The translations under genes were made by a program, and so were the position numbers. DNA of 28,683 nt, from positions 1-28,683 of IMG/VR virus record IMGVR_UViG_3300032282_000241. One strand, given 5' to 3'. Shown here one piece after another: positions 4,781-25,585 of the stretch. The notes below the pieces were generated by a model. The model saw only the letters and a list, made by a program, of their open reading frames with translations. It did no database searches and was not told where the DNA came from. Position 1 is the stretch's first letter, and every line of letters begins with the position of its first letter. The stretch is from a virus.

Positions 4781-5067
4781 GTAAGAAGTATGATCTCGTC
4801 GTTAAGGTCGGCGAATACACAGATGGCCAAGGACAGACCAAGGGCCGCTTTAAGAATGTCGGCGTCATGATGGACGGGGACAAAGGCCCCTACCTTCTGC
4901 TCGACCGCACATTTAATCCAGCTGGCGTTGGCGGGAACGAAGGCCGTGAGAGCATCATCGTCTCGCTGTATGAGCCCAAGGATAATGTTGGCCAGCAACA
5001 GGCCCCAGCGGTTAAGTCTGGTGGCTACAAGGCGCGTGACCTAGACGGCGACGACGTTCCGTTTTAA
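4777..5067 (+). CDS. Putative single-stranded-DNA-binding-like protein with SSB-type acidic tip
   Basis: A 96-aa protein with strand-rich N-terminal two thirds (KYDLVVKVGEYTDGQG, then RFKNVGVMMDGDKGPYLLLD), a Gly/Gln-rich linker and a tail ending DLDGDDVPF. This ending closely resembles the acidic DDDIPF tip by which bacterial SSB recruits its partners. Short beta-rich body, flexible linker and acidic tip match the layout of SSB, though the body is too short for a typical full OB fold and I do not recognise it as a named SSB family. It directly follows exonuclease and annealase genes, which fits a ssDNA-binding role. Last gene of the + strand block; its stop abuts the opposite-strand late operon. 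Confidence 0.7.
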   Translation: MGKKYDLVVKVGEYTDGQGQTKGRFKNVGVMMDGDKGPYLLLDRTFNPAGVGGNEGRESIIVSLYEPKDNVGQQQAPAVKSGGYKARDLDGDDVPF

Positions 5068-8000
5068 TTATTCGGGGAAGGCGGGGTCAGCTCCGCCTTC
5101 CACATCTGCGTAATCTTCTTCTTCGTCGGGGATAAGATCGTCTTCACTGTCCTCGACCATGATGTTCCGGTAAGCATCGATGTAAGCCTGCTTCTTCAGT
5201 TTGCCCACATTGTCCAGCTTCATGCCCGGATACAACTCCGCCATCATTGCTTCTTTCAACGTCTGCTCTGAAGGTGGCTTGACGGCCTTAGCCATGTTGC
5301 CAGCCTGAATTTGTGCTGCAAACTCTTTGACAATCTCATTCATCTCTTCGCCGAACTTTACGCGAATTGCTTCCGCCTTCTTGGGGTCTCCAGCTTTTTC
5401 AGCTTTGATTGCGTCTGCCAGCATCTTACTCAGGCGCAGCGTGTTGTTGCGCTCAGCGTTTTGTGTTGCCTTGGCAATCTCTGTGCCTGCCTGACGAGCC
5501 TGCTGCCGTCGTGCAATGTCAGCCGATTGGAAGCCAGCGCCGCGTGGAAGCTGCTCAGTAAGGAAGTCCATTTCCTCAGCTGGCTTGACGAGCGTACCAT
5601 AGCGCGTCCGATAGCCTTCTATCGGGTACTGCACAAAACCCTTTAAAAGATCCGATGGCCCCTTACCAATGAATGGCGATATAGCCGTTACATATGCGCC
5701 TATTGGCTGTACGCCAGAGGCTCTGCGATCAAGATACTCTTGAATCTTTAGCACGCTAGTTGAGATAGCCGGTACGATACCAAGTCCGTCTTCAAATTCA
5801 GGGACAATAGAAGTAAAACCAATGCGCTCACTGATATTCAAGCCAAGTAATGCCCGCGATGGCCCACGGAATATTGCTTCGGCATCCCGGCGTGCGTCTT
5901 CTCCGCCACCGAACATCTCGGCCAGCATCATCTGACCTTCAGTACGGAAGTCCATCTTCTCACCGGCAAACTTGTTATAAATCCATTGGAAGATATTGAT
6001 TGCGTCATCGCCAAACGGAATTGCAAACAACAAGCCAGCCACAGTCCACATCGTCATTATGGTGAACATGGCCGCAACCTTACCGCGAGGCCCTTGCTTG
6101 CGCAGGTTTTCCGACAGTAGGAACATGGTCTGCAAAGCGTACTGGGAAAACTGCAGAAGCACACCACCAGCACCGCGCATAACAGGCGGCTTCTCGATCT
6201 GGCCGCCCATAAATGTCGCTGTCTCGACCATGAACTCAGCAACATCGTAAGGATTAGAGCCCTCATCCATAATGATCTTGGCGCGTTCGTTTTCAGCGTA
6301 GGCTTTCTGCCAGTTCTTCAGGGCCTTTGGATCTTTGGCATAGCGGTACGCCACAATGAACGCAGCCACCTTGTTCATCTCCTCAGTTACTGAGATGACG
6401 CTCGATCCGTATTGGAAGTAACGGCTTGCAGTTTGCTTAATCTTGCCGCCACGGGAGGCCATAGCTTGGCTCTCGATACCCATAAGCTCTGGGTTCATCT
6501 GGGCCCGGACGGTTCCACGCTTGTTTGCAAGGATAAGAACCTCGCGCTCTTCATCCGTCAGGCCGGGTATTGCGTATGGATTAACGTGCATTCCATGGCC
6601 GATCTGCCCACGGAATCCGGCGATAACCTGAACCGACATCTTGTAGACATCGAGGCCAGCTGAACCCTTCATGATTGTCATCTGCGGAGCGGTAACTGTC
6701 CACACGGACATGGCGTTGACAGCCGAAGACGCAATGCTTCCCCACATGGAATTGTAAAAGCCAATCGTCCGGAGCGCACGCCACATGGTATGCTCAGGGC
6801 TATCGACATACTCGTCCCATCCTTCGGCGTATTTCTTTTCAGCTTCCCCGACGTTGCGCTTTAGATCATCAAACGCCTCGGAGTATTCCTCGCGGTACAT
6901 CCGGTGCGAAACCGTTGATGCCACGATGCGGTTGTAATCGAGCAGCCGATCCGTGAAGTTCGTATCGTAGCCGGGAATGTCACGGGATTGCTTCATGAAG
7001 CTGGAGATAAGATCCTGCATCAAGACTGAGCGCACACTCTTAGGAAGGCCAGCAATCACGCCACGCGCAACCTGCTCCGCATTCGCCGCGCTAAGGCCGC
7101 CGACAGTCTCCTCCGAGAACATGCCACCCATCGTCCGGTCAAAGTAATTCTTGATGATCTTGCCAGCATTGGCATCCATCAGGTTGAGCAGCTTGTCCAA
7201 TCCTGACAGGTCATCGATAGACAGGCGCTCGTTTATGTCGGCGGCCTTGCGGCTCACAACAATCTTGTATCCATCGCTGGCTGGGTACTTCTTTTGAATC
7301 TCTGCAATCTTTGCTTTGACGTTGGGATCAGGAATCATCTTCGCAATCTTTGGGCCGACCAAATCTTTGAGCCACTGAAGGCTGTCCAGCATAATGAAAG
7401 CGCCGCTGTCTATCGTTCCGTCACGGCCATAGACCATGATGCGTGTATCGCCTGATCGCATGAACGGGATGTACGATATGAGGCGCTGCGATTCGATGGC
7501 ATCAAACAGGCGTAGAAGATCATCGCGAAAACTATCGTCCTCAACCCCCTCCTCTATAGCGTTGCGGCTGTATTCGCCATCGTAACCAAGAGCCGCCAGC
7601 TGCGACTTTGCATTCAGGGTATATCGACTATCCAGATAGTCCCGCATCTCGTGGAGCATACGGGTTTCATTCGCGTCTAGCTTCAGCGTTTGGCCGGGCT
7701 TTGACAGCTGTGGAGTAAACAAGCGCTCGATGCCATCCGCACCCTCCCTGCGGATCTCACGGGTCTTCAAGGCAAAGTTACGGCCAGTGTCACGCACAGC
7801 GGTTCTGGACAGGCGGAGATACTCAACAACCGAATTGATCCTGTCTTTGGATTCCTGCGGCAGCTGGCCCAACTCGTGCAGCATCTCTTCATAGTCAGCC
7901 ATGAGGAGATTGCGCATTTTGATCTTGTCGTTGGTCGCCTTATGCAAACGCGCAAAGTACTTACTTTTTCTGGCGACAGCAGTTGCCGGACGAAGCCACG

Positions 8001-8106
8001 ATGACAGAGCGCCAATGTTCTGCACAGGATCCAAGAAGACCGGGGCCTCCGGTGGATTGTCCATAGCGACATCAGCTATATCAAGGGAGCAGTTAGATCC
8101 TATCAT
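5068..8106 (-). CDS. Large internal virion / polyvalent protein with LPD38-like region (1012 aa)
   Basis: Last gene of the late operon. The protein is mainly helical. Residues about 560-750 resemble large polyvalent protein-associated domain 38: a Phe/Tyr-rich helix, the stretch VLLQFSQYALQTMFLL at 649-664, and a strongly hydrophobic span at 678-699 (centre TMWTVAGLLFAIPF) followed by an acidic GDDAINIF. The C-terminal 150 residues are charged coiled coil and end with an Asp/Glu-rich tail. Its start overlaps the stop of the 1878-aa gene by one base, and in other phages LPD38 often ends a single giant polyvalent protein, so the pair looks like one protein split in two. The hydrophobic span fits a role in crossing or coating host membranes during DNA ejection. 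LPD38 call is by pattern. Confidence 0.75.
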   Translation of the reverse strand: MIGSNCSLDIADVAMDNPPEAPVFLDPVQNIGALSSWLRPATAVARKSKYFARLHKATNDKIKMRNLLMADYEEMLHELGQLPQESKDRINSVVEYLRLSRTAVRDTGRNFALKTREIRREGADGIERLFTPQLSKPGQTLKLDANETRMLHEMRDYLDSRYTLNAKSQLAALGYDGEYSRNAIEEGVEDDSFRDDLLRLFDAIESQRLISYIPFMRSGDTRIMVYGRDGTIDSGAFIMLDSLQWLKDLVGPKIAKMIPDPNVKAKIAEIQKKYPASDGYKIVVSRKAADINERLSIDDLSGLDKLLNLMDANAGKIIKNYFDRTMGGMFSEETVGGLSAANAEQVARGVIAGLPKSVRSVLMQDLISSFMKQSRDIPGYDTNFTDRLLDYNRIVASTVSHRMYREEYSEAFDDLKRNVGEAEKKYAEGWDEYVDSPEHTMWRALRTIGFYNSMWGSIASSAVNAMSVWTVTAPQMTIMKGSAGLDVYKMSVQVIAGFRGQIGHGMHVNPYAIPGLTDEEREVLILANKRGTVRAQMNPELMGIESQAMASRGGKIKQTASRYFQYGSSVISVTEEMNKVAAFIVAYRYAKDPKALKNWQKAYAENERAKIIMDEGSNPYDVAEFMVETATFMGGQIEKPPVMRGAGGVLLQFSQYALQTMFLLSENLRKQGPRGKVAAMFTIMTMWTVAGLLFAIPFGDDAINIFQWIYNKFAGEKMDFRTEGQMMLAEMFGGGEDARRDAEAIFRGPSRALLGLNISERIGFTSIVPEFEDGLGIVPAISTSVLKIQEYLDRRASGVQPIGAYVTAISPFIGKGPSDLLKGFVQYPIEGYRTRYGTLVKPAEEMDFLTEQLPRGAGFQSADIARRQQARQAGTEIAKATQNAERNNTLRLSKMLADAIKAEKAGDPKKAEAIRVKFGEEMNEIVKEFAAQIQAGNMAKAVKPPSEQTLKEAMMAELYPGMKLDNVGKLKKQAYIDAYRNIMVEDSEDDLIPDEEEDYADVEGGADPAFPE
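5076..5101. terminator. Hairpin at the convergent junction, possible bidirectional terminator
   Basis: GGAAGGCGG at 5076-5084 pairs perfectly with CCGCCTTCC at 5093-5101; the stem extends inward by a G-T wobble and one G-C pair to leave a 4-base loop (TCAG). It lies immediately after the + strand stop and inside the last codons of the - strand gene, where both transcripts end. Neither strand has a clean U-tract after the stem (only TTTT on the + strand, before it), so this is not a textbook intrinsic terminator. Confidence 0.45.
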
Positions 8107-11100
8107 CAGTCACACCCTCGGTTATCTTTCTGCAGGTCAGCGCCTTCTTCAATGATCTTATCGTTGGGTTCTTGAGCTTTTGCAACAGCATTGCGCATCT
8201 GCTTGGGCGTGCCGTTGATCAAGGCTTGAATAGCCTGCCTATTATTAGTGACATTCTTGGGCGAAACCGCTTCATCATTTATCGCAGCTACACGGAAGTC
8301 AGCTTTTGTCTTTTTGCCAGCAGCCAGTACGCTATTACCAGCATCGAGGAAGTCGTTAAAGAACTGGTCACGCGCCGGAGCCATACCGAATATCTTGCGG
8401 AGCATATCCACAAAGTCATCCCACCAAGAGCGTTTACCAGCTTCTTTCTCACTCATCAGCCGATAGCCGTTTCCATCAGCTACAATACGCTTAGCGTATT
8501 CCTGAACACCCTTATTAGTCAGGAGATAGGAGAGCGCTTCGTTGGGAGACTCTGCTGCGCTTATGACGGTGGTGGTAATTTCCGTGCCACCTTCGTATTC
8601 TTTTTTAATAACATTAGTAAATTTGCGCCACATGTTATTAAATTTCTTAACCTCTGCAGCAACCTCTTCGTTGTATAGGCCGCGATTGTCTAACACCTCA
8701 CGGTTGGATTCAGTGTAGGCAGCAACACTTGACCAACGTGCCTTTACATAAGCATGGATTGCTTCATGTAAGAACGTCTGCTCGTTCACGCCGTTTGAGG
8801 CTTGGTCAGGGTTCTTTATGAGATAGATGTTCTTATCTTTTGCGGTCGAAAGAACCATGCCGCGAACATCGCCCATGCTTATAAGATCGATGGACTCTTG
8901 GTCAGCACCATTCTTTGAGAGTACATCTACCGTTTTGTCCAAGTTGTTAACTGGATCAAGGATCACCATCTTCTGGTCACCAACGCCGTTCGCGGCAAGG
9001 ATGGTTGCAATCCTGCGAGCAGCTGGGTTCTTGCTGCTCCTCTGAATTATCTCAATGGCTTTCTTTGTGTCGCCACTTTCAAGCGTTTTGTAGAGAACGC
9101 TGCTCGGTGCAATCGGCGTATCGTTTATATTTGCGTTCACTGGTGATGTGGTTAGGACCGTCACTGCCGCAATGGCAGTCTTGAGAGACTTAGACGCCTT
9201 AGCTGACGCGGCTTCACCTTCCACATCATTCATGCGGCTAAAGTTCTTGGAACCAGCAATAAGTTTAGCGCCAGTTTCTAATACGGTATTGAGCTGCGAT
9301 TGGAACTTGGGCTCAAAACCAAGTAGCTTCCGTACAAATTCTACAAATCGCGTCCATAGATTGCCCTTATCGAGAAACTTCTGGAAGCTAGGCTGGGTCA
9401 GACCTTCAGCAATGAACTCATCTAGGTCAGTCATGCCGTAAGGAGGGGCATCAATCGCTGAATATTTTACATCAGTCAGCATATCTCTGTATGCGTCTAC
9501 CAACTTACTAGCTTCGTTACGTAGCGCAACTATCTCTGGGTCAGTGCTTGCTGCCATATTCTTCAAGCGCATAAAGCCAGCGCCATACTTAGCTACCAAT
9601 GCAACGTGGACTGCCTCATGAAGAAGGGTCACAATGTTTGCTGCAGTTGACACCCCACGCAAACGAACTTCGGGTGTTTCACCTATATTAAAAGAAGCCA
9701 GACCTAGAGTGAAAGCTCGTTGAAGGCTAAAATTCTTATTGCCAATCTTGACGTTAACATCGTCATCGATGACTCCTGCCAAAGCAGCAGCAAGCTCACG
9801 CTGCGCGGGGCTCATCTTATTGAGAATGTCCGGGTCGCGCAATAAATCTGTTAGCTTAGCATCGGTCTGTAAAGTCTTACCCGTTAGCGCAGACCATGCG
9901 TCCTGCATCCGGTAGATCATGTACTGGATAGCTTCGGCTGGATTTGTAATTGCAGTGCTGACGCCGCTTAGAAGGCCGCTGCGAAGTTTTCTTGATTTTG
10001 TTTGCGAAGGTTTCTCAACGCCGCCAAACATATCAGACTGTGGAGCGCCACTGCCACGCTCTTCCAAGATGCCGTCAAGAATTTCAGATGGCGACATTGA
10101 CTCACGCTCGAATAGACCATCGCCCGTTGTCTGCTCAGAAGCCCGGCGTACATACTTATCAAGCACATCGGCGATAGCTTCGCGACCAGCTGCACGACCT
10201 AATGTTTCGTTATAGAACGAACGGATGAAACGCTCCGTCACGGGGTCTAAAGGATTGAAGGCGTCATTCTGAGCAAGGAAGTCAGCAATCTTCGTGCCCT
10301 TGTTACGGACATCTCGAACGATTTTTGCCGCTTCAACGAGCTGCTTGGTCGTGTCCATTTCTGGCTCGACATCGCCTTCTTTGATTGCATCGAGCATCCG
10401 CCGCCATGCTGGGGCGACATCCTCAAGTGCACCACCAATGCTCTTGATGTTATTGTCCTGCGACTCATCGAGGGTATTGATCAGGTCAGCATCACCGTAT
10501 GCAGATGACTTGACGGCTGTGCGAAGGCGGCGACTGCCTTCAGCTGATAGCCGCCCATCTTTATCAAGAAACGCAGCCTGCTCTTGCGTTGGCAGCTTTG
10601 ATAGGAACGCACGCACAAAGCCCTGATTAACTGAAGCATTGACATCAGGAGACGCCATTAGGCCCATGACATCCGGAGTCAAAGACGCCGCGTCGGTCTG
10701 GGCTTTCTCGCTAGTGCTAAGCTGCAGCTTTGTGTCCATGTTGCTTTCGCGCACAAATTTAGAGCGCTCTTCAGGCGACATCCGGTCAGTCCGGCGGCGC
10801 ACCAGAACGGGACGATCAATCCCAGATATGTCAAAACCCTGATCTTCAATGAACTTACGGTATGCAGCAGCTTTCTCAGGTGACTCGTCGTACACCTTGT
10901 TGATTACCATGACGCGACCGTTGCCACTTTCAATTACGTTATCGAAACCAATAATCGGTGAACCACGGTCGCTCTCAAGGCTCTCACCAAGGCGCTCAGG
11001 GTCAAACTTGGAGAAGATGTCCTGAACCTGCAGGGCAGTGGAATCCCTGTCGCGCTGGCGATTCTGCAAGTCACCTGTTGCAGCTATCAGATCGGCAGCA

Positions 11101-13742
11101 TCCACAACCTCGAAGGCTGTGTTCACCTTTGATCCACCGGGCGTAGTAACGGTGCGAACGCGCTCTGGCGGTGGTGGTGGAAGTTCAGGTTCTTCTGCGA
11201 TAGGCGCGGTCACGGGTACTACGGCATCCTCAAGAAATGCCTCCGAGAAATTGTCCGTGGATTGATTACCACCTTCGCTCGTCAGACTTGAACCAAACGC
11301 GCTGATCTTCTTTTGATTAAGCGACTTGGCGCGACCTTCGCCTTCCCCAAAGATATGGACTGGGACAGGCTCATCCCCATTCTTTTCCTGAATGACCATC
11401 ATCCGGTGGCGACCGTCATGACCTTTGATCTTGCCTGTCTTAAAATCCAATGACAGGAATGGCGAACCAACGCCCCTGCCTTCATCAATAGAATCTCGAA
11501 TAAAATTAAGGCTGGATTGCTTTGGCTTGTCAATATCAGCCGCCAATTCAAGGAACTTTGACGGGCGCATCATAGCTGTGAAGCCGCGATACTTTACATT
11601 TTGGTTAAGCGGAACCTGACCAACGCCATTTACTTGGTCAAAGATTACGTTTCCAACTTTAGATTGCTTCTGCGTATTTTTTGGTGATGGAGCCTCAACC
11701 ACTGGCGCTGGAATCTCAGGTTCTTGTACAGGTTCTTGTACAGCCTCTGGCCGTGGCCCATACAAGCGTGTCATCAGGGCTTCAGCGTTACGACGGTAGG
11801 ATGCCTTGTTAGGCACGCCGCTACCCATAGTCCAATCAGATCCTAGAGCCCATGAAAGATTTGGGAAGTCTTGTCCTTCAAAAGACTTGCTAAATTTATC
11901 CCACACAACAGCAGGCTCACGCTTGTCTGGACGGTATGGCGCAATTGCAACTTTTTCAGGCGCTTCATCTGGAACTGTCTTAAATAACGCATTGTCAAAG
12001 GCCATCCCGGCCTGAAGCATGTCCTGCGTTGACACACTTTCCGCCCCACGCTCAGTCGCAATCTTACGAGCATCATCTTCGACCTGACGCATCTGGCTGG
12101 GCGTGCGGGTTTTCGCGTACTCCTGCATGTAGGAGTCTACATCTTCGTCGATAGGTAAGACTGTGGTGGGTGCGGCAGCCACGACTGGAGCATCAGGCTC
12201 AATGATTAGCTTCGGCTTCGGAGGCGATGGTACGTAGTCTGCAGCACGAGGCGGCGGCGGAGGCGGCGGTGGCGGAGGCGCGACCACATCAGGTAGATCC
12301 TCAGTAATATCCATACCAAAGGCCATGCCGCCCAAGCCACTCTCTGGCGCAGCAACACCAGCCTTGATTGCAGCCTGAACCTGAGCAGGATCTTCAGAAT
12401 AGATTACGCCATCTTCATCTGCGAGAACAACGCTACCGTCTTCATCGATTCCTTGGTATGTGTAGTCCCGTGGCCCAGATGGTTCGTTGAGCGTGACCTT
12501 ACCACCGACCGGGCCAAGGGCCTTAGACAATGTGCCCATGTCTGCAGGTGGTGGGGGCGGCGGCGGAGGCGGGCGTGAGGCGCGTGATGATGATGGTGGG
12601 GGTGGAGTTCCGTCGTCTGTCGCGCCCCTATTGAAAGCGCCTTGGAGTCCACCCAGAGGAGCTGCCATTATGCCGCCGCCGATGGCGCCAAGAACACCGG
12701 AAGACAGAACGTCTTCACCAATAGGCACTTCTGCTGCAGTCCCCAACTTAGCTACGTTCGTTGCCAGCTTAGAGCCAGCCTCTTCAGCAAATTCCTGAGG
12801 AGCTTCACCAATAACTGCACGACCAGCTGATCGAAGAATGCCACCTTTTGCTGGCTTCTCGGCAAATGCTAACTGCTCAAGGCCGGGTATTTTTGTCGCT
12901 GCTGCGGACACAATGCCAGCGCCAGCCGCCGCTATCTTAAATGCACGGTCAGCCTCTTCTTGAGTTCCACCCTTAGCAAGAACATCTGCATAGGCTTGGC
13001 TACCAGCATCTACGGCATTTATTGTTCCACCTGCAGTAGTCACGCCTATGCCAACCTGCCTAGCAAGCGCGGCCTCTGCAGCTTCACGCCCTGCAACTGG
13101 TAGGAATCTCTTGCCCACAAGTTGGACAGCCTTGCCTCCACCCATTGGGAGAAGTGTAGCTGGTAGCTGGCTGGCCACAAACTCAGAAGCGCCTCGCGCT
13201 GTTTGGAATGGAGCCTGAACGGTAGCTATTGAACGGGCTGCTTCGACAGGGGTTTGCGGTAAAAACTGACGCGCCAAGGGGCCAACAGTTGGGTTAGCTG
13301 CAGCTGCCCTGCTAAACACGGAAAGAGCCTGAGAGCCTAAACCGGGCTTTGCCTCTTTAATGTATTTCTGCTGCGCTATACGCTCTTGCTTACTGGCTTC
13401 CGGTAAATAAAGATCAGATTCAGTTTTAATTTTCTTGCCGACATCTTTTTGCAAAGCGCCAGCTAATGAAAGCAACGGAGAAGCAATGCCTGCTGTAGTT
13501 CCAAGATAGGGTGCAGCTTGCTGCAGTCCTAATCCAAGAGTAGAGGCAAGATCCCCAATAGCACCTGTAAATGTTGGAATAACTCCACTGAGAAACGACT
13601 CTTCCTCTTTCTTCTTTTTCTTCGGTTTAGCAGCCGACGAAGGTGGATAATTCTGCCGCATCACCCGCGTTATATCGCTGTCAGACATTCCATCCGGGAA
13701 GTTGACAAGTGTTCCGTCAGGTGCGCGAACTGTAATAGGCAT
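8106..13742 (-). CDS. Giant polyvalent internal virion protein: two ParB-like and two zincin domains (1878 aa)
   Basis: Layout: residues 1-34 a short module (MPITVRAPDGTLVNFPDG) seen at the start of phage ejection proteins; 50-370 an Ala/Gly-rich amphipathic region; 391-399 and 489-498 poly-proline tracts around a small beta-rich unit; 695-830 a ParB/Srx-like domain with GHDGRHR at 774-780; about 873-1200 a DdrB-like ParB region with RQRDRD (895-900), DPERLGES (914-921), IESGNGRVM (937-945) and RPVLVRRRTD (977-986); 1375-1379 a HEAVH zincin motif; 1659-1663 a second, HEAIH. Likely third ligands are Glu1446 and Glu1735. Polyvalent proteins are thought to enter the host with phage or plasmid DNA and to blunt restriction or remodel proteins. 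The ribosome site is poor, so translation may depend on the gene two bases upstream. Confidence 0.85.
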   Translation of the reverse strand: MPITVRAPDGTLVNFPDGMSDSDITRVMRQNYPPSSAAKPKKKKKEEESFLSGVIPTFTGAIGDLASTLGLGLQQAAPYLGTTAGIASPLLSLAGALQKDVGKKIKTESDLYLPEASKQERIAQQKYIKEAKPGLGSQALSVFSRAAAANPTVGPLARQFLPQTPVEAARSIATVQAPFQTARGASEFVASQLPATLLPMGGGKAVQLVGKRFLPVAGREAAEAALARQVGIGVTTAGGTINAVDAGSQAYADVLAKGGTQEEADRAFKIAAAGAGIVSAAATKIPGLEQLAFAEKPAKGGILRSAGRAVIGEAPQEFAEEAGSKLATNVAKLGTAAEVPIGEDVLSSGVLGAIGGGIMAAPLGGLQGAFNRGATDDGTPPPPSSSRASRPPPPPPPPPADMGTLSKALGPVGGKVTLNEPSGPRDYTYQGIDEDGSVVLADEDGVIYSEDPAQVQAAIKAGVAAPESGLGGMAFGMDITEDLPDVVAPPPPPPPPPPRAADYVPSPPKPKLIIEPDAPVVAAAPTTVLPIDEDVDSYMQEYAKTRTPSQMRQVEDDARKIATERGAESVSTQDMLQAGMAFDNALFKTVPDEAPEKVAIAPYRPDKREPAVVWDKFSKSFEGQDFPNLSWALGSDWTMGSGVPNKASYRRNAEALMTRLYGPRPEAVQEPVQEPEIPAPVVEAPSPKNTQKQSKVGNVIFDQVNGVGQVPLNQNVKYRGFTAMMRPSKFLELAADIDKPKQSSLNFIRDSIDEGRGVGSPFLSLDFKTGKIKGHDGRHRMMVIQEKNGDEPVPVHIFGEGEGRAKSLNQKKISAFGSSLTSEGGNQSTDNFSEAFLEDAVVPVTAPIAEEPELPPPPPERVRTVTTPGGSKVNTAFEVVDAADLIAATGDLQNRQRDRDSTALQVQDIFSKFDPERLGESLESDRGSPIIGFDNVIESGNGRVMVINKVYDESPEKAAAYRKFIEDQGFDISGIDRPVLVRRRTDRMSPEERSKFVRESNMDTKLQLSTSEKAQTDAASLTPDVMGLMASPDVNASVNQGFVRAFLSKLPTQEQAAFLDKDGRLSAEGSRRLRTAVKSSAYGDADLINTLDESQDNNIKSIGGALEDVAPAWRRMLDAIKEGDVEPEMDTTKQLVEAAKIVRDVRNKGTKIADFLAQNDAFNPLDPVTERFIRSFYNETLGRAAGREAIADVLDKYVRRASEQTTGDGLFERESMSPSEILDGILEERGSGAPQSDMFGGVEKPSQTKSRKLRSGLLSGVSTAITNPAEAIQYMIYRMQDAWSALTGKTLQTDAKLTDLLRDPDILNKMSPAQRELAAALAGVIDDDVNVKIGNKNFSLQRAFTLGLASFNIGETPEVRLRGVSTAANIVTLLHEAVHVALVAKYGAGFMRLKNMAASTDPEIVALRNEASKLVDAYRDMLTDVKYSAIDAPPYGMTDLDEFIAEGLTQPSFQKFLDKGNLWTRFVEFVRKLLGFEPKFQSQLNTVLETGAKLIAGSKNFSRMNDVEGEAASAKASKSLKTAIAAVTVLTTSPVNANINDTPIAPSSVLYKTLESGDTKKAIEIIQRSSKNPAARRIATILAANGVGDQKMVILDPVNNLDKTVDVLSKNGADQESIDLISMGDVRGMVLSTAKDKNIYLIKNPDQASNGVNEQTFLHEAIHAYVKARWSSVAAYTESNREVLDNRGLYNEEVAAEVKKFNNMWRKFTNVIKKEYEGGTEITTTVISAAESPNEALSYLLTNKGVQEYAKRIVADGNGYRLMSEKEAGKRSWWDDFVDMLRKIFGMAPARDQFFNDFLDAGNSVLAAGKKTKADFRVAAINDEAVSPKNVTNNRQAIQALINGTPKQMRNAVAKAQEPNDKIIEEGADLQKDNRGCD
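11718..11741. repeat. Perfect 12-base tandem duplication
   Basis: AGGTTCTTGTAC occurs twice without spacer. On the coding strand it gives a repeated Val-Gln-Glu-Pro unit in the proline/glutamate-rich linker just before the first ParB-like domain of the 1878-aa protein. It is in frame and recent-looking (no mismatch). Confidence 0.85.
12249..12278. repeat. Poly-proline triplet tract (GGC/GGA/GGT repeats)
   Basis: A run of ten proline codons (residues 489-498 of the 1878-aa protein), seen as a GGC/GGA/GGT triplet array on the + strand. Such tracts act as stiff spacers between domains and can slow ribosomes. Confidence 0.85.
12546..12572. repeat. Second poly-proline triplet tract
   Basis: Nine proline codons (residues 391-399 of the 1878-aa protein). 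Together with 12249-12278 it flanks a small beta-rich unit of about 85 residues (GGKVTLNEPSGPRDYTYQG and following), isolating that unit from the domains on either side. Confidence 0.85.
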
Positions 13743-13744
13743 GT

Positions 13745-15223
13745 TTATTTCAACGTGTTAGTTGTGGGATCATACGTGCGTACTTTAGCGCCACCCGCCG
13801 GAGCAGCAGCGGATGGAGAAAAATTCAGCTGCTTCTCAATAGATCTCATTTGCGCCTCGACAGTCGCCAGCTGAGCCCTGTAGCCCGCCTTAACCTTAGG
13901 ATCAGTTATAAGTATATTGTCAGCTGCAGCACGCAGGCTCTTCGCCTGTGCCCCAAGCGCGGCATAATACGTGGCAACTCCCTTTGGTATTCCCGTACTG
14001 TTGGCTGAAGGTGGGTTCTTTCTATATGCAGCAAGAGCGTCAGAAGCGCGTATCGCGGCCTTTTGAGTTTGCACCTCAAGCCGCTTCAATTCTTCTGCAT
14101 AATTGGCTTCCACTTCAAGTGTCTTTGCCTTTGACTTAGCTGCGCTAAGTTCTAGTGGCGCCATAGCTAATTTATTTACGCCTTCCTGATTCAGATTCGC
14201 AAGCGTCATTTCACCTTCAGTTAATGTTGCTCCAGCATTGGCACGATTAATTGCATCGGCACGAGCCTTCTCAATTAATTCACGATTCTTCAGGATAAGC
14301 TCATCACGCTTTTCTTCAATGGTGCGACGAGATTCCTCACGCGCATCACGAGCGCCTGTGTAGCTTTCAGAGCCAGCCTGTAGGCCACGAGCCAAGACGG
14401 AAGCAAACTTCTCACCGGGTTTTGCGCCTGCAAGTGCAGCACCAAATGCCATCAAAGCATTTCCCGGAGCGCGTTTGCGTGCTTGATCAATTAGCTCTTC
14501 TTCGCGGGTAAGCCGATTGGTCTGACGTTCCAATACAGCTGCGCTCTCCGCATCGACAAATGCAGCTTCTTCAGCATCGACCATAGCTTTTAACTTAGAA
14601 GCTACGCCAGATTTAATCTGTATTTCATAGGTGGTCTTGGCATCAACTGGCTGGCCTTGTGCTAATAACGCATCCTTCTGCGCATTTAGCTGTACAAGCT
14701 CAGCCTGCGCGGCCTCAAGCTGTGGCCTGAGACGCGATGTGAATTTTGGCTTTGCTGGAGCTTCAGGAACAGATTCAGCCGTACTCAAAGCTGCAGCTAT
14801 GGGACTAGCCACAGGGGCTCCCTCAGTCGATTCCGCTTCAGAGCCTGCGCGTAATCCAGCAGCAAGGTCATCTACCCGTGCGTTAGCAGCTGCCATCTCA
14901 GCAGGAGTTGGGGGCTGCTTGTTGAAGTCACGAACTTCCTGTGCCCGCTGATAAGCACCAACGTCTGTACCAGTGAGTGTTTGAGCAGTCAGCGGCGGAG
15001 CCGTCAGCTTTACGCCCGGTTCTTCAGGTGCTGGGGTAGCTGCCGTTACCAGCTTAGTTGAAAATAGATTAGCAAGTCCACCACCACCAGCGCCCAAATC
15101 TCCAGCAGCTTCAGACGCCATAATCTGTGAGATTAAATCTCCAACAGCCATGTTCTGAAGCTCAGGCTTTGCTGCCCGCAGCCGCATTGCAGCCAAATAC
15201 GCTTGCTGGGATGTCATCGCCAT
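13745..15223 (-). CDS. Probable internal virion protein, Ala-rich coiled coil (492 aa)
   Basis: The protein is very rich in Ala, Glu, Lys and Gln. Residues 1-150 are Ala/Pro-rich and loosely structured; about 165-245 and 295-385 are long charged helices with coiled-coil spacing (for example REESRRTIEEKRDELILKNR), separated by a Gly/Ala-rich turn. No enzymatic motif is visible. Its place between other late genes and immediately before the giant polyvalent gene is where podoviruses keep core or ejection proteins; a scaffold-type function is the alternative. The ribosome site is made from the last codons of the upstream gene (GAAAGGCAAATAA, 15225-15237), and the start at 15223 is one base after that stop; an ATG two codons later is also possible. 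Confidence 0.7.
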   Translation of the reverse strand: MAMTSQQAYLAAMRLRAAKPELQNMAVGDLISQIMASEAAGDLGAGGGGLANLFSTKLVTAATPAPEEPGVKLTAPPLTAQTLTGTDVGAYQRAQEVRDFNKQPPTPAEMAAANARVDDLAAGLRAGSEAESTEGAPVASPIAAALSTAESVPEAPAKPKFTSRLRPQLEAAQAELVQLNAQKDALLAQGQPVDAKTTYEIQIKSGVASKLKAMVDAEEAAFVDAESAAVLERQTNRLTREEELIDQARKRAPGNALMAFGAALAGAKPGEKFASVLARGLQAGSESYTGARDAREESRRTIEEKRDELILKNRELIEKARADAINRANAGATLTEGEMTLANLNQEGVNKLAMAPLELSAAKSKAKTLEVEANYAEELKRLEVQTQKAAIRASDALAAYRKNPPSANSTGIPKGVATYYAALGAQAKSLRAAADNILITDPKVKAGYRAQLATVEAQMRSIEKQLNFSPSAAAPAGGAKVRTYDPTTNTLK

Positions 15224-15224
15224 T

Positions 15225-16157
15225 TTATTTGCCTTTCAGCCAACCAAGCCCGTGCATCGGATGCTTGATGTTTCTCTTACCATCAGCGTTAATTGGGCCG
15301 CCCTCTTTCTTCTTAAACAGGTTCGCCAATGCACCAATGCCGGTAGCTACAGCGCCGACTGTTGATGCCGTGTTGCTCACGCCGGGAGCCGTTTTATATT
15401 CAGTGCCGCCAGCGCCACTGGCACTTGGTGTGCCGACAAAATTTTGAAAACGTAGAGCCTGATTGTAATCATAGTCGCGCTGAGCTTCAAAGTCTTCCCG
15501 CATTAAATCAAGCGAACGCTGATCCATGTTGCGCTGCGACGAACCTGCAGCCTCAAGCGCAGCTGTATCCGTTCCAGCCATGTCCTGAATACCACGACCA
15601 AGCATCTGCGCCCGCTCAGCTGCCGTCAGGTAACGATTAGCCTCAGTGTTGAACTGACCCATGCCGCTCTCATAGCCCTTCTGGAGAGCCTCGTTCTGGG
15701 CCGCAAGTGCAGCAGCATTTGCATCACGAATAGCGCGGGCCGTGAACTCAGCGCTCCGGCTACCACCAAACGTGCCGCCACCAACGAATGTACGGTTTAC
15801 CTGAGGCAGAAGATTCTCATATAGGTTGCGGCCAGCCGCAGAGCCGATCCCAGCAACGACGCTATCCGTATATGGATTCATATACTGAGCTACGACACCC
15901 GGATCTGTGAATGATTGCGTTGAGTTTGCAATGTAATTGCCCGCTGCTTCCGTATATGGTTTGTAGTTCCCAACATTCCGGGAAACCATATTGTAAGCCT
16001 GCATCTCTTGCGGAGAAAACCCAGCAATACGTGGGCCAGCAGTGTATGGCTGATAGCCCCCAGTTGTAGAGGTATAGCCCCTTTCAATGCTTTTTTTGTA
16101 AGCATCCACAAGCCACTGGGGTAGCCTAGTTTCGGTGACGGTTTCTGTGACAGCCAT
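15225..16157 (-). CDS. Probable internal virion protein (310 aa)
   Basis: Residues 1-110 are Tyr/Gly/Pro-rich (TSTTGGYQPYTAGPRIAGF), residues 120-225 are Ala-rich amphipathic helix with Gly-rich breaks (FVGGGTFGGSRSAEF), and the last 60 residues hold a hydrophobic stretch (TVGAVATGIGALANLF) followed by KKKEGG and a basic tail. The KKEGG motif near the end also occurs in the 651-aa protein next door. I know similar proteins only as uncharacterised structural genes of podovirus-like phages. It is coupled to the 651-aa gene (the ATG overlaps the neighbouring stop at 16157) and has a good GGAGG site nine bases upstream. A DNA-ejection or internal-core role is inferred from place and composition. 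Confidence 0.7.
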   Translation of the reverse strand: MAVTETVTETRLPQWLVDAYKKSIERGYTSTTGGYQPYTAGPRIAGFSPQEMQAYNMVSRNVGNYKPYTEAAGNYIANSTQSFTDPGVVAQYMNPYTDSVVAGIGSAAGRNLYENLLPQVNRTFVGGGTFGGSRSAEFTARAIRDANAAALAAQNEALQKGYESGMGQFNTEANRYLTAAERAQMLGRGIQDMAGTDTAALEAAGSSQRNMDQRSLDLMREDFEAQRDYDYNQALRFQNFVGTPSASGAGGTEYKTAPGVSNTASTVGAVATGIGALANLFKKKEGGPINADGKRNIKHPMHGLGWLKGK

Positions 16158-18112
16158 TATGCCATTCCTCCAACAGCTTTGAGCATTCTATCTATACCCT
16201 TCTGGGGTTTTGCAATCTTTTTTACATTCTTGCGTCCGGCTTGACGCCGCACCATTTGGCGCATTTTATCAAGACGGCGCACACCTTCATCATTAGAACC
16301 ATCACCAAGATCAGAAACATCCTGTGCGCTCCAGACATATTCCCCATCGGAGAGGTACGCTGGGATCTTATCTTCCTGTCCGCTGCCAATACCCTTTACC
16401 TGTCCGGGGCCATTATGACCGCCATTCTTACGGTACTCGACAAGATGCTTTACCATATCATCATCAATTTCGCCGCCTTCTTTTTTAACGGGGATAGTCG
16501 CAGGATTGACAGCACCAGATGGCGCGGTTGTTATTACGGGCGCTCCAGTTATTGGGTCTAGATCAAAGAACATAAACTCTGTCTCCTGATCCCCGCCTGT
16601 GCGGCCATACGTTGTTGGCGTATAAGGATAGATATTGGCATCGCCAATTCCACCGCTGGTAAAAGTTGGCCGCAGGGGTTTAGTTACAAAGTTCAAGCCA
16701 GTTGTATCCGGTGGTCGCGTCCCACCGCTGCCGCTGCCGCTACCAGCAGCGATTCCAAGCAGAGGAAGAAAGTTACTTGCCGTGCTGGCTAAATCAGCGG
16801 CATCTTTAATTTTGTCTAGCGTGGATTTTTCTGCGTCCTTACGACCCTGCTCTTCTTTAAGTTTGTTTTGGTATTCAGTTGATAATAAATAGTCTTCAAT
16901 CCCCGGAATAGCGCCACCAATACCAGTAACATCAACTGGAGTTGTAACTGGTTGCGGTGTACTAACAACGATTTCGCCTGTGGTTTGGTCAACACCCTTT
17001 ACAACATTCGATCCTGAGCCAGTGCCGCCGCCTGCTGTGGTAGCGGCTGTAACGCCGCCAAGGCCACCAATACCGACTATAGCGGCTAGTGCTTCAGGTG
17101 ACAGAAAGGATCTCGGTGCATTGGCAACGATTTCGCCCGTGATCTGATCAACGCCGTTTACAACATTTGAAGTGACGGGCTGTTGCGTTGCTGGCGGCTT
17201 ATACCCAGAGAGTTCGCCCAATCCAGCATTAGCTACGTTAGACACTAACGCATTAGCGGCTGTTCCTCCAAGAGCTTGCGCTGCCTTTGAAAGACCAGTG
17301 ACAACAATATCGCCCGTAGCGTTAGCGGCAGCTTGACCGCCAGCTTGCGCCGCACTTCCACCAACACCACCCAGTGCTCCGCTAATTGCTTTATCAAGAC
17401 CAGTGCCGCCTACTATACCTGCGGTAGCGCCACCCAGTAATGCACCTTTGAGGATGTCATCACCTTTGAGTGCAGCGCCTAAACCACCCGCGCCTGCAGC
17501 AATTGCCATTTGTGCGGGTAGGCTCATGCCGCCTGTTGCGATAGCGGCAATAATCGGAGCAACAGTTCCCAATACACTGCCAATCGTACCCAGCGTACTC
17601 TTATTTCTCTTCTCATGGGCAACGGTTGTGTACACCCCATTAGGGCTTGCAGTTTGAATATCATATTGCGCTTTGCGGCCCAGTGTATCAGTAAGGTTCT
17701 GACCCATCGCGGTTGCTTGGCGTGCGGCGTCGTAGCCTGTGCCTTCAAAGATAACGGTATTGGTGTTAAGATCAACGAGACGCACTTGCTGCGTGGGCGT
17801 CATCGTAAATACGTTGCCCGACGGCGAAGTGGGGTTGCCTTTATTGGATATTGGCGCGGTGATGTATTGCAGGTTGGGATCGTCTTTGTACATCCCGCTG
17901 CCCCAACCAAAGTTCATTCCATATAGGCTGTCCAGTCCGCTTAGATCGATGCCGGTAAAATCAAGTTTGCTAAAATCAACTGGTGTGTCAGCAGACGCAT
18001 ATGTTTGTGTCGTTGGCACAATCCCAGCTTGCTGATACGCGCCAGCGGGGTAACTACCCAAAGAAGACGTCAAGTAATTGTCGTAATTGGGGAAAGATCC
18101 GTATTCAAACAT
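16157..18112 (-). CDS. Probable virion protein with C-terminal SDGEY/F motif domain (651 aa)
   Basis: N-terminal 170 residues are Tyr/Asp/Gly-rich; 172-300 is a long Gly/Ala-rich, partly hydrophobic region (GTVAPIIAAIATGGMSLPAQ) that could insert in membranes; 316-386 contains two copies of an 18-residue repeat (GVDQxTGEIV core); the C-terminal 90 residues carry GPGQVKGIGSGQEDKIPAYL and SDGEYVWSAQDV, a recurrent phage virion motif of the form GxGTGxSDxIPAxLSDGEFV, then a basic tail. This C-terminal module appears in many phage structural proteins, but I know of no defined function. GGGGGA is a strong ribosome site ahead of the ATG. Likely internal or ejected, by neighbourhood. Confidence 0.72.
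   Translation of the reverse strand: MFEYGSFPNYDNYLTSSLGSYPAGAYQQAGIVPTTQTYASADTPVDFSKLDFTGIDLSGLDSLYGMNFGWGSGMYKDDPNLQYITAPISNKGNPTSPSGNVFTMTPTQQVRLVDLNTNTVIFEGTGYDAARQATAMGQNLTDTLGRKAQYDIQTASPNGVYTTVAHEKRNKSTLGTIGSVLGTVAPIIAAIATGGMSLPAQMAIAAGAGGLGAALKGDDILKGALLGGATAGIVGGTGLDKAISGALGGVGGSAAQAGGQAAANATGDIVVTGLSKAAQALGGTAANALVSNVANAGLGELSGYKPPATQQPVTSNVVNGVDQITGEIVANAPRSFLSPEALAAIVGIGGLGGVTAATTAGGGTGSGSNVVKGVDQTTGEIVVSTPQPVTTPVDVTGIGGAIPGIEDYLLSTEYQNKLKEEQGRKDAEKSTLDKIKDAADLASTASNFLPLLGIAAGSGSGSGGTRPPDTTGLNFVTKPLRPTFTSGGIGDANIYPYTPTTYGRTGGDQETEFMFFDLDPITGAPVITTAPSGAVNPATIPVKKEGGEIDDDMVKHLVEYRKNGGHNGPGQVKGIGSGQEDKIPAYLSDGEYVWSAQDVSDLGDGSNDEGVRRLDKMRQMVRRQAGRKNVKKIAKPQKGIDRMLKAVGGMA
16955..17167. 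repeat. Two-copy 18-codon repeat in the 651-aa gene
   Basis: Copy 1 spans 17114-17167 and copy 2 spans 16955-17008 (reading on the - strand). Both encode NVVxGVDQxTGEIV plus flanking residues; the DNA copies differ mainly at silent or conservative positions. The intervening 105 bases are Gly/Thr-rich and unrelated. Confidence 0.75.
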
Positions 18113-19996: not shown

Positions 19997-21031
19997 TTAA
20001 AACATCAAAAACATGTTGCTAGAACCTATAACGGTATAGGTAATGATAATAGCGCCTTGCGCGCCGGAACCACCATTAGCTTGTGTACCCCCAGAACCAC
20101 CTGAGCCGCCACCGCCGCCATATCCGCCGCCACCGCCGCCAGCACCAGCAACACCGCCCGGAGCGGACGAACCGCCCCCGCCAGCACCACCGCCGCCTGA
20201 GCCAGCAGTTCCGCCCGCAGAGATAGAAAATTCAGAACCAGCACCACCAGCAGCGCCATTACCAGCAGTAATAGAAGCACCGTTCGTGCCGCCGCCGCCG
20301 CCGCCGCCTCCGCCATTCGTGCCAGTAGTTCCAGAAGTGGGGACTGTTGCGCTACCTGTACCGCCAGTGCCGCCTGCGCCGCCAGTATATGTTAAACCGC
20401 CAGCGCCACCATTACTGTTTGCAGCCGCAGTTGCGGCAGTACCTACGCCGCCAACACCCCCGCCGCCACCGCCACCGCTACCTGCTGTACCTGCGGTAGA
20501 TGCACCTACACGACCCACTCCAAGCGAACTACCAGCAGAGCCACCAGCAGCAGAACCAGACCGACCAGTGCCACTACCAGCACCACCCGCTCCACCAGAG
20601 TTCTTAGTTGTTCCCCATCCAGATGCAGATGCGCCGCCAAGACCGCCTGTGGAGCTACCGTTAGAACTCGCGCCACCCTTGGCAAGCAGTCCCGTCGTGT
20701 TGGACGTTGGCGCTGTGTTTGTAGATGCTTGAGTTGAGGTGTTCCAGTTTAGCCAAGTGTCACCACCAGCAGTACCGTCGGTGTCATCAACCGTAGCGCC
20801 CGTGCCGCCAGCGCCGATAGATATGTAAACAGTAGCCGCTGCCGTAAAGTTGAGATTGGTGCTTTGAGACCAAGCGCCACCGCCAGCGCCGCTATAATTT
20901 ATGCCAGCACGCGCTCGACCACCGCCACCACCACCACCTATAACAGTAACAGTTGCATTAACCGTAGTGTCGAGGTCAGCCGGAACCGTAAATGTGGTTC
21001 CAGAAGTAATTAGGACGGTTTTAGTGGCCAT
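19997..21031 (-). CDS. Glycine-rich tail adhesin (344 aa)
   Basis: Residues 1-35 form beta strands (TSGTTFTVPADLDTTVNATV); a Gly_rich_2-like domain follows to about 95 (VIGGGGGGGRARAGINYSG, YISIGAGGTGATVDD), then about 200 residues in which Gly, with Ser, Ala and Thr, forms nearly every position, closing with GSGAQGAIIITYTVIG. Glycine-rich receptor-binding tips of this kind can fold into bundled polyglycine type II helices, as in the gp38 adhesin of S16-type phages, and determine host range. Codons are dominated by GGN, so the opposite strand reads as a false proline-rich ORF. It shares a TAATG overlap with the small gene upstream and lies within the fibre gene group. Confidence 0.75.
   Translation of the reverse strand: MATKTVLITSGTTFTVPADLDTTVNATVTVIGGGGGGGRARAGINYSGAGGGAWSQSTNLNFTAAATVYISIGAGGTGATVDDTDGTAGGDTWLNWNTSTQASTNTAPTSNTTGLLAKGGASSNGSSTGGLGGASASGWGTTKNSGGAGGAGSGTGRSGSAAGGSAGSSLGVGRVGASTAGTAGSGGGGGGGVGGVGTAATAAANSNGGAGGLTYTGGAGGTGGTGSATVPTSGTTGTNGGGGGGGGGTNGASITAGNGAAGGAGSEFSISAGGTAGSGGGGAGGGGSSAPGGVAGAGGGGGGYGGGGGSGGSGGTQANGGSGAQGAIIITYTVIGSSNMFLMF
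20288..20315. repeat. Triplet microsatellite (GCC/GGC) in the adhesin gene
   Basis: An almost pure GCC triplet run on the + strand, coding for an uninterrupted stretch of about nine glycines in the adhesin. Similar shorter tracts lie at 20106-20140, 20460-20480 and 20920-20940. Such repeats are prone to slippage by whole codons, which would change loop length without a frameshift. Confidence 0.8.
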
Positions 21032-21228
21032 TAGACTACCGGTTCAGGCGGGGGGATAAACTCCGTGCCTGTCCAGAACCAACCAATATCGCATAGTTGT
21101 TCATTCATAATCTCAACAAGCTGGCAGCCATCTGGTGCAGGATCGTAGGGAGACGCAATGATGATGTTAATCACCAGCCCGTCACTTAGCTGGCAGACCG
21201 CACAAGTGGTTGAAATACTTTCAGCCAT
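21031..21228 (-). CDS. Small fibre-associated protein (65 aa)
   Basis: The protein holds a compact pattern: VINIIIASPYDPAPDGCQLV, then CDIGWFWTGTEFIPPPEP. This form (V-N-I-I-x-A-x-P ... P-D-G-C ... I-G-W-x-W-x-G-x-x-F) recurs in short phage proteins next to tail fibres and at the ends of some fibre chaperones. Four cysteines are present. It lies between the fibre and the glycine-rich adhesin and shares a TAATG overlap with the latter, so an assembly or tip-attachment role is likely, though this is inferred. AGGAAA serves as ribosome site. Confidence 0.65.
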   Translation of the reverse strand: MAESISTTCAVCQLSDGLVINIIIASPYDPAPDGCQLVEIMNEQLCDIGWFWTGTEFIPPPEPVV

Positions 21229-23483: not shown

Positions 23484-24662
23484 TCATACAGCATCCAGCA
23501 TTTCTGTTGTAACCATTACTCGCCCCACAGCGCCATACTTTTTATGATACGTTATAGCCCATGCAGCACGATCTGAAATCCAGCCACCACGCGCAGCGTA
23601 GGCATCTCTGGCGCTAAGTGTTGGATGTTGCACCACAGTTACCCCATTATATTCTTTCTCATCCCTGCTATGGCGGTGGCCGCAGTGGATTTCACGTCGT
23701 ATCGTGCGGCCCCACTCTTGCGGGAACTGCGCCGCGAACAACAGCGGCAGACTTTCATTCTTTACCTTGTGGCCGTGGTGAACGCCTAGCATGGTGTTGC
23801 CCCATTCAAACACGTAGAACGGCAAAACGCTATCGTTGACAGTGACGCGAGGGTCATCTTCGTAATGTACAGCGAACAGGTCAGCCAACCAGCCAGCGCT
23901 CTCTTCGTCGTGATTACCTTCGGCTATAATTAGATAAACTTCCTGATGGCGCTGCAAACATACTGCCATCAGTGAACGGATGATGCGGATTGCGGCACGG
24001 CGGATTTTTGGGAAGCGGCTATCTGCGTCCAACACATTCTTAGAAGCTGGTGTTACCGGCGTCTTGCCGTCCGTGTGCAGGAAGTCACCTTGGATATTGA
24101 GCATCCCTGTGTGTGCATTTGGGCTTTGATTGACCATCTGTACCAGTGCAGCGATGATAGTCTTCTCTGCAATTTCAAGATTCCAATCCGATCCACCTTC
24201 TTTATGCCATGCCAGCATCCCAAGATGGTAATCGGTAAACGTATAGAGGTTGCACAGATGCTCCTCAGAAGCAGATGGAGCAGCAACAGCCGCCGCTGGC
24301 GGTATCTCGTCCTTGAAGCCAGCAACAGTCTCACGCATGGCGTCTATGAGCGCCTCATGCGTCAGTGATGCCTTTACCCATTGCCCAGACGGTTTGCCTT
24401 CGGAGTTATAGTAGGTTGACACGCCTTTTGTGACGTAGCCGTTTGGCACGGGTCGAGTGAAATCATGCTCTGGTGCATAGCCTTTTAACGCGGCCTTTTT
24501 CTTGACTGCAACGTAAGCATCGCTTGCCGCGCCTATGTTAACGCCCATTGCAAGCGACGCAGCCCTAGCGCCGCCATGCGTTTCTATAGCCTCAAGCATC
24601 TCTCGCTGCCTTGGTGTGCAATACGCATACAGTTTTGGGTCTATGGATATGGATGAGGGCAT
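23484..24662 (-). CDS. Calcineurin-like metallophosphoesterase with N-terminal helix-turn-helix-like region
   Basis: The metal-binding motifs of calcineurin-like phosphoesterases are all visible: DYHLG with Asp144 and His146, GDFLH at 192-196, GNHDEE at 249-254, HHGHK at 295-299 and CGHRHS at 327-332. Substrate is not evident: nucleic-acid ends, nucleotides or phosphoproteins are possible. Residues 10-60 (CTPRQREMLEAIETHGGARA, then AASLAMGVNIGAASDAYVA) resemble the homeodomain-like helix-turn-helix of small terminase subunits and recombinases, suggesting DNA contact. It lies in the late operon between spanins and adaptor, an odd site for a nuclease. The start directly follows the o-spanin stop and uses its last codons as ribosome site. 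Confidence 0.88.
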   Translation of the reverse strand: MPSSISIDPKLYAYCTPRQREMLEAIETHGGARAASLAMGVNIGAASDAYVAVKKKAALKGYAPEHDFTRPVPNGYVTKGVSTYYNSEGKPSGQWVKASLTHEALIDAMRETVAGFKDEIPPAAAVAAPSASEEHLCNLYTFTDYHLGMLAWHKEGGSDWNLEIAEKTIIAALVQMVNQSPNAHTGMLNIQGDFLHTDGKTPVTPASKNVLDADSRFPKIRRAAIRIIRSLMAVCLQRHQEVYLIIAEGNHDEESAGWLADLFAVHYEDDPRVTVNDSVLPFYVFEWGNTMLGVHHGHKVKNESLPLLFAAQFPQEWGRTIRREIHCGHRHSRDEKEYNGVTVVQHPTLSARDAYAARGGWISDRAAWAITYHKKYGAVGRVMVTTEMLDAV

Positions 24663-24675
24663 TTATTTGCCTTTC
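24663..24675 (-). promoter_or_regulatory. Ribosome site built from a C-terminal Lys-Gly-Lys-stop
   Basis: GAAAGGCAAATAA on the - strand ends the o-spanin gene (Lys-Gly-Lys-stop) and supplies the AAAGG Shine-Dalgarno for the phosphoesterase, whose ATG follows at once. The same 13 bases stand at 15225-15237, ending the 310-aa protein and starting the 492-aa gene. Confidence 0.6.
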
Positions 24676-24896
24676 GGGCAATCAGCCTCACAGATACAAA
24701 TAAAGGCGCTGTTGTGCGCCTCTATCTCTGCGACAGTTTCTGATGTGTCTTGCGTCGCGTCGTAAGATATAGGTTTTGCAATAGCGCAATAGCTATTTAC
24801 GGGAGCGGTCAAAACGGTTGCGCAGCCGCTCGTCGCGCTCAGGATCAGGGACGATAACAGCAGCTTCGCCAAGTGCGATTTGCTCGTTAATAGCAT
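24663..24896 (-). CDS. Outer-membrane spanin (Rz1-like lipoprotein)
   Basis: A 77-aa lipoprotein. After a basic start, SLILSATSGC is a lipobox with the lipid-bearing Cys at residue 25. The rest (VNSYCAIAKPISYDATQDTS, then VAEIEAHNSAFICICEADCP) matches a common group of o-spanins with the Y-C-x-I-A-x-P-I core and a Cys-rich end. In complex with the i-spanin it fuses the inner and outer membranes in the last step of lysis. The real ATG is at 24896; a longer frame starting at 24950 would add 18 charged residues and spoil the signal peptide. It overlaps the i-spanin by 104 bases in another frame, the classic Rz/Rz1 arrangement. Confidence 0.82.
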   Translation of the reverse strand: MLLTSKSHLAKLLLSSLILSATSGCATVLTAPVNSYCAIAKPISYDATQDTSETVAEIEAHNSAFICICEADCPKGK

Positions 24897-25190: not shown

Positions 25191-25191
25191 G

Positions 25192-25584: not shown

Positions 25585-25585
25585 G

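Follow-up and report, generated by a model that had tools for sequence, protein, structure and literature searches.

We analysed a linear virus record of 28,683 bases (hereafter the window, meaning this whole stretch of DNA) and found that it encodes a giant polyvalent ejection protein divided between two adjacent genes. On the simplest history the two chains derive from a fused form by gene fission. Across the relatives of the window, the cargo of the larger chain is swapped and its C-terminal tail and its partner chain stay constant. Both chains follow a rule of cysteine avoidance whose exception lies at the cut, where each end bears one conserved cysteine. Based on these features, we lean towards a model in which the split giant docks through the tail, is held together by a C1877-C6 disulfide outside the cell, and would release its cargo on reduction in the cytoplasm.

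The large chain (P0002, 1878 aa; an ORF at 8106..13742, minus strand) is the split-off N-terminal cargo half of the polyvalent ejection protein, and the small chain (P0001, 1012 aa; 5068..8106, minus strand) is a free-standing, divergent PLxRFG (tail-700) module. As an earlier note on this DNA had described, the two genes are adjacent and overlap by one base: both are minus-strand ORFs joined by a TGATG stop/start overlap (8104..8108, minus strand), and all split relatives keep this overlap, as either TGATG or TAATG. A Shine-Dalgarno-like GAGGG for the small chain (8115..8119, minus strand) lies 8 nt before its ATG, within the codons of the large-chain tail. This constant tail, about aa 1834-1878 of the large chain, is encoded at 8109..8243 (minus strand). 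The sole cysteine of the large chain, C1877, is its penultimate residue (...NRGCD; codon at 8112..8114), and the sole cysteine of the small chain is C6 (MIGSNC; codon at 8089..8091, both on the minus strand). We rejected a frameshift or an assembly error as the origin of the split, because the identical junction occurs in >25 contigs. A programmed frameshift giving a fusion was likewise rejected, because the small-chain frame of window-type relatives has a stop two codons before the ATG and we saw no slippery site. At the far end of the small-chain gene (5065-5070), no base separates its stop codon from that of a plus-strand 96-aa gene, and two convergent operons meet there end to end.

The pair lies in a late, structural gene context. 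Its neighbours in the ejection operon, all on the minus strand, are a 492-aa protein (13745..15223, placed by synteny), a 310-aa DNA ejection protein (15225..16157; phrog_4287, 8.8e-18; homologue of RW GP065, 1.7e-33), and a 651-aa homologue of RW GP066 (16157..18112); these three and a 78-aa ejection neighbour contain no cysteine. By the 534-aa structural protein, the nearest cultured relatives are the Caulobacter phages RW, GB2A, RLK, and KcrB (49% identity). In RW (proposed Riverwalkvirus), homologues of the 534-, 651-, and 310-aa proteins occur in the same order, followed by a 435-aa gene and then by the last gene, whose 722-aa product carries an SLT transglycosylase domain at its C-terminus; the pair sits in that last slot. 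The 'DNA ejection protein' assignment of the 310-aa neighbour and this synteny confirm the ejection slot in which the earlier note had placed the pair. Like T7 gp16, the pair occupies the position of the last ejection gene, and it contains a segment homologous to phiKMV gp37, the equivalent of T7 gp16 (PMC8954989). The slot, the gp37 homology, and the cysteine-free signature described below together suggest that both chains are packaged in the virion and injected. As to the probable host, the nearest isolates infect Caulobacter, and one locus (L047) lies within an alphaproteobacterial MAG.

The large chain joins unrelated domains, a DdrB-like ParB domain and two zincins, in one polypeptide, as polyvalent proteins do. 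From its N-terminus (all on the minus strand) it comprises a Gly/Ala-rich chassis (aa 46-380; 12603..13607), a small domain (aa 405-478; 12309..12530), a swappable ParB-like segment (aa 690-830; 11253..11675), the DdrB-like ParB domain (aa 870-985; 10788..11135), zincin 1 (aa 1355-1505; 9228..9680; HEAVH at 1375), and a swappable zincin 2 (aa 1640-1810; 8313..8825; HEAIH at 1659). Profile searches bear out the DdrB-like ParB domain named in the earlier note (PF18763, E=1e-31), and aa 870-1348 align with P1 DdrB (E 4e-32). The other, non-DdrB ParB-like region named there, which comes first in the chain, survives as a motif, GHDGRHR, which is found in a minority of relatives and matches no Pfam model. 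The zincin call also holds: in a one-sequence search both zincins, putative metallopeptidases, align to the HExxH region of phiKMV gp37 (2e-12 and 7e-6), and the alignment spans the region of the distal Glu on the following helix. A search of all phages further matched zincin 1 to phiKMV-like gp16-type ejection proteins. Neither of the two chains, nor the 492-aa neighbour, gave a match to an SLT or lysozyme domain, the peptidoglycan hydrolase of gp16-type proteins.

By the sequence tests run, the small chain is a divergent PLxRFG module, not LPD38. It matches NCBIfam NF032893 (PLxRFG, tail-700) at 5e-29 with 101.3 bits, against a curated cut-off of 100, over aa 396-918 (5353..6921, minus strand); some members of the split clade score 94-99 bits, slightly below that cut-off. 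The highly conserved SYIPFMRSGD appears to correspond to the YFPLxRFG motif that opens the canonical PLxRFG domain, and alignments place a degenerate candidate for the motif, PFMRSG, at aa 214-219 (7450..7467, minus strand). The window's small chain has no Pfam or PHROG match. The LPD38-like region claimed in the earlier note was not recovered: 0/16 aligned small-chain members match LPD38 (PF18857) at E<=1, and a profile comparison with LPD38-bearing C-termini, made with thin profiles, gave an hhalign probability of 1.9%. LPD38 does occur in the same phage lineage, in locus L027, where it is a positional analogue of the small chain.

An AlphaFold model of the small chain built from 16 close relatives was uninformative (pLDDT 42), and an AF2 model from a 53-row alignment with distant PLxRFG rows was mediocre (pLDDT 61, pTM 0.52). 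Searched against a viral fold library, the small-chain model matches C-terminal chunks of large polyvalent proteins (top score 9e-16, TM 0.55). A weaker match (1e-4) is to proteins annotated 'internal virion protein D' in podophages of Roseobacter and Bordetella; such weak matches have to be weighed against the modest confidence of the model. A PDB fold search with the model gave nothing significant, and sequence searches against solved structures gave nothing. Residues 1-35 have a pLDDT <50 in AF2, and the cysteine-bearing ends are predicted to be disordered. The small chain has a TM-like hydrophobic span (aa 678-696; 6019..6075, minus strand; Kyte-Doolittle 1.89), as the earlier note had observed, and the fused relative L046 has a span of the same type (1.99); hydrophobic stretches rich in Gly and Ala are also present in the large chain (aa 345-363, 1.63). 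The clear TM-like span is confined to the PLxRFG half, and a membrane/cytoplasm division of labour between the two chains, suggested in the earlier note, is plausible.

PLxRFG modules are usually found in fused proteins. Among closed canonical PLxRFG ORFs, 52/54 are fused giants of 1308-3680 aa, and prophage copies are fused except for one 659-aa open frame (L112), probably a degraded copy. We considered the short PLxRFG ORFs L097 and L112 as parallel splits and rejected them, as they look frameshifted or degraded. In the window's clade, every complete example has the PLxRFG module as a gene of its own, encoding 1000-1111 aa, and the small chain is 65-90% identical within the clade. This split clade is a single lineage of metagenomic contigs represented by about 27 samples, which do not count as independent origins. 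A survey for fused relatives, which the earlier note had suggested as a check, found L046 and Shewanella phage Y11. In the sister L046, where the gene order is the same, a single 1994-aa ORF in the same slot encodes the chassis, a zincin, and the PLxRFG half. Its PLxRFG half is 51% identical to the small chain, and the large-chain tail matches the L046 linker directly before that half (13.2 bits vs <=9.2 in 1000 shuffles). Because the tail corresponds to the L046 linker and the giants are usually fused, we conclude that fission of one gene within the linker gave rise to the pair; this is the simplest history, and on these sequence comparisons we count it among the results.

The tail has since been kept under purifying selection (dN/dS 0.17-0.20), which argues against a neutral, accidental fission of a chain that is processed by zincin autoproteolysis, as proposed for polyvalent metallopeptidases. 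Such an account can point to the fact that zincins are the commonest domain of polyvalent proteins and have been proposed to separate their units (PMC5512222), and to the presence of HExxH in 15/19 split large chains. The four split relatives without any HExxH (L007, L012, L038, and L041) nevertheless keep the split, the tail, and both cysteines, and neutral fission makes no prediction of a cysteine at each cut end of otherwise cysteine-free proteins. We therefore consider this explanation decidedly improbable.

The large chains of the split relatives (n=19) are mosaics of modules and range from 909 to 1896 aa. The domain at aa 405-478 occurs in every split relative whose ORF reaches there, as well as in the fused L027 and L046. 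Every large chain that could be followed to its end has the 41-aa tail, and the Gly/Ala-rich chassis has several forms. The DdrB domain is present in 17/19, in two forms (L039 and L041 are without it); zincin 2 is found in a minority, and zincin 1 is convincing only in the window's large chain. The homologue in L040 (L040:4329-10001) carries a GHKL/Hsp90-type ATPase domain, and the L013 protein is 89% identical to the window's large chain over the first 514 residues and 49% identical over 685-1266. Overall, the cargo is swapped around a fixed small chain, tail, and beta-domain.

This pattern bears on the interpretation offered in the earlier note, an injected anti-restriction plus protease machine, here taken in the sense that its ParB and zincin activities would be fixed parts. 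The wide occurrence of DdrB-type ParB among the split relatives speaks for it, as does the presence in P1 virions of DdrB, a component of the Dar system (PMC9024508; PMC12810830). However, neither activity is constant, as DdrB is missing in 2/19 and HExxH in 4/19, and the cargo of L040 includes the Hsp90-type ATPase. P1 DdrB, the best-known relative, is itself listed as helping DarB addition to the capsid, not as an anti-restriction enzyme (PMC9024508). Finally, the syntenic slot of RW holds a transglycosylase protein, which indicates that the constant role of the slot is ejection. The machine reading thus says more than the relatives bear out, and we regard it as quite unlikely. In its observations the earlier note was largely right, including a polyvalent protein split into two chains in the ejection slot, and its interpretation is partly supported; the LPD38 assignment was not supported, and the machine goes too far.

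We asked how cysteines are distributed in the two chains. Residue 6 is the sole cysteine in 24/24 complete small chains, and the penultimate residue is a cysteine in 19/19 large chains, of which only L040 has a second (aa 1190, in the ATPase cargo). Each chain thus offers one conserved cysteine, as a disulfide pair between them requires. To avoid circularity, we searched the viral collection with a junction pattern in which either cysteine codon could vary. The scan returned 32 matches: 26 true junctions, with Cys/Cys in 26/26, and 6 unrelated chance matches. With one cysteine per chain placed randomly, and conservation not counted, both would fall so near the cut with a chance of ~6e-6. The fused proteins of L046, L027, L028, and Shewanella Y11 contain no cysteine. 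L027 serves as a natural control for the cysteine rule: its slot (L027:3407-10438) holds a single fused 2343-aa LPD38-type giant, it nests inside the split clade by RecT (90% identity), and several flanking genes show 79-90% identity, a pattern we attribute to replacement of the whole slot.

A constraint on the DNA or RNA, such as translational coupling, the Shine-Dalgarno sequence, or the overlapping start, could in principle keep cysteine codons irrespective of protein chemistry. In favour of this, the GAGGG overlaps codons of the tail, and C6 is always encoded by TGC. Against it, the tail cysteine is invariant although its codon may be TGT or TGC, adjacent third positions vary, and C6 follows the start codon, where it could play no Shine-Dalgarno part. 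The junction also has no conserved RNA structure (consensus fold just -1.2 kcal/mol, no compensatory change). We consider this explanation most improbable. A second possibility is that the cysteines serve other thiol chemistry, in homodimers or with a metal or another virion partner, and that the chains are ejected separately. There is a single cysteine per chain, both on flexible ends, and cysteine occurs in further virion proteins of the phage (five in the 534-aa protein, five in a 514-aa protein, and four in a 65-aa protein), all of which this possibility would accommodate. It fits less well with the placement of the two cysteines on either side of a single cut, within a linker that is unbroken in the fused L046, and with their joint absence from fused relatives; we judge it unlikely. 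Because the cysteines flank one cut and are missing together from the fused relatives, a bond between the halves is favoured. That the two chains act together, as the earlier note had claimed, is likewise supported by inference, from the purifying-selected tail on the cargo gene and the cysteine pair at the cut.

Cysteine is scarce in ejected proteins beyond this clade. It is absent from T7 gp15 and gp16, phiKMV gp35-37, P22 gp7, gp20, and gp16, N4 vRNAP (3500 aa), and RW GP063-066; T7 gp14 has a single cysteine, its second residue. Cysteine does occur in most of the non-ejected podovirus virion proteins that we compared. Among distinct fused PLxRFG giants, 30/45 have none, and the rate is 0.14 per 1000 residues vs 13.9 in the window's early genes. 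Some cysteine is present in the Dar proteins of the myophage P1. Cysteine rarity is possibly a signature of ejected proteins in the podoviruses checked. We found no literature linking ejection proteins with cysteine or a disulfide in a search of open-access papers. Two side observations may be recorded. In the related record ctpbd312 (L049, MW202545), the syntenic slot runs counter to the rule: it holds two extremely cysteine-rich proteins (24059-25978 and 25982-27220), one of 639 aa with 36 cysteines and one of 412 aa with 33, which include near-poly-Cys runs. In the window, the 65-aa late protein with four cysteines (21031-21228) lies beside cysteine-free neighbours.

Our preferred model, reduction of a disulfide between docked chains, would run as follows. 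The ancestral giant, an ejected polyvalent protein in the position of T7 gp16 and partly homologous to it, was divided by fission ahead of the PLxRFG module at its C-terminus. Both chains would be translated successively from the overlapping genes, the small chain from its own Shine-Dalgarno sequence, and packed in the virion core, where the constant tail of the cargo chain may dock on the PLxRFG chain. In the oxidising virion or periplasm, C1877 and C6 could then form an intermolecular disulfide, and the pair would travel as one giant. The reducing cytoplasm of the new host would open the bond and free the cargo (DdrB-type ParB, zincins, or another module), and the PLxRFG chain, with its TM-like span, would probably stay with the conduit. 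Cargo release that needs no protease fits the four split relatives without HExxH. We tentatively extend this to a broader reading, which we hold with slightly less than even confidence: a redox-released, two-chain injected protein whose halves are re-joined by the only two cysteines the lineage allows, and in which cargo can be exchanged without rebuilding the conduit.

Several known systems share parts of this arrangement. Like phage-type polyvalent proteins (PMC5512222), the pair combines DdrB-like ParB, zincins, variable cargo, a late operon, and predicted injection. However, Iyer et al. 2017 described such domains in single polypeptides and proposed zincin autoprocessing (the word 'split' is absent from that paper; PMC5512222), whereas in the window the protein is divided between two genes, the cut falls at a fixed linker, and either cut end bears a cysteine. 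The small chain resembles PLxRFG proteins (NF032893) in its above-cut-off score, its candidate degenerate motif, and its fold match to the C-termini of giants, but it is free-standing at about 1010 aa, whereas the module elsewhere ends proteins of 1.3-4.3 thousand residues. With phiKMV gp37 and T7 gp16 the pair shares the last place in the ejection cluster and, for gp37, zincins that align, and its small chain gives the weak fold match to internal virion protein D, the name of this family; it differs in having no detectable lysozyme or SLT domain, two chains, and much larger cargo. P1 DdrB, which aligns with the large chain, is packaged in the virion (PMC9024508), but it belongs to a myophage, is unsplit, has 2 cysteines in 995 aa, and lacks a PLxRFG partner. 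RW GP063 occupies the same slot after the 651- and 310-aa homologues and shares the Gly/Ala-rich start, yet it is the single 722-aa SLT transglycosylase protein, with no ParB, zincin, or PLxRFG. A precedent for functional virion disulfides in an alphaproteobacterial phage is the tail disulfide network of Agrobacterium phage Milano (PMC10811340); unlike in the window pair, those bonds are many, lie in external tail proteins, and involve no injected cargo (PMC10811340).

For the passage of thousands of protein residues through the cell envelope and their release inside, zincin autoproteolysis is the standing proposal. The split lineage offers an alternative, in which a covalent link would be undone by the destination itself. 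It also illustrates, in nature, how a delivery chain can stay constant while its cargo, joined through a 41-residue tail, is exchanged. What is new here is the conserved cysteine at each cut end of ejected proteins that are otherwise nearly cysteine-free.

Two further observations concern the rest of the structural operon. Homologues of the 651-aa neighbour (16157-18112) in L012, L020, L025, and L046 range from 562 to 1575 aa and are all cysteine-free, and its position resembles a second variable slot. In addition, a 392-aa DNA repair exonuclease (23484-24662; phrog_704, 4e-111) is encoded between the head-tail adaptor and lysis genes.
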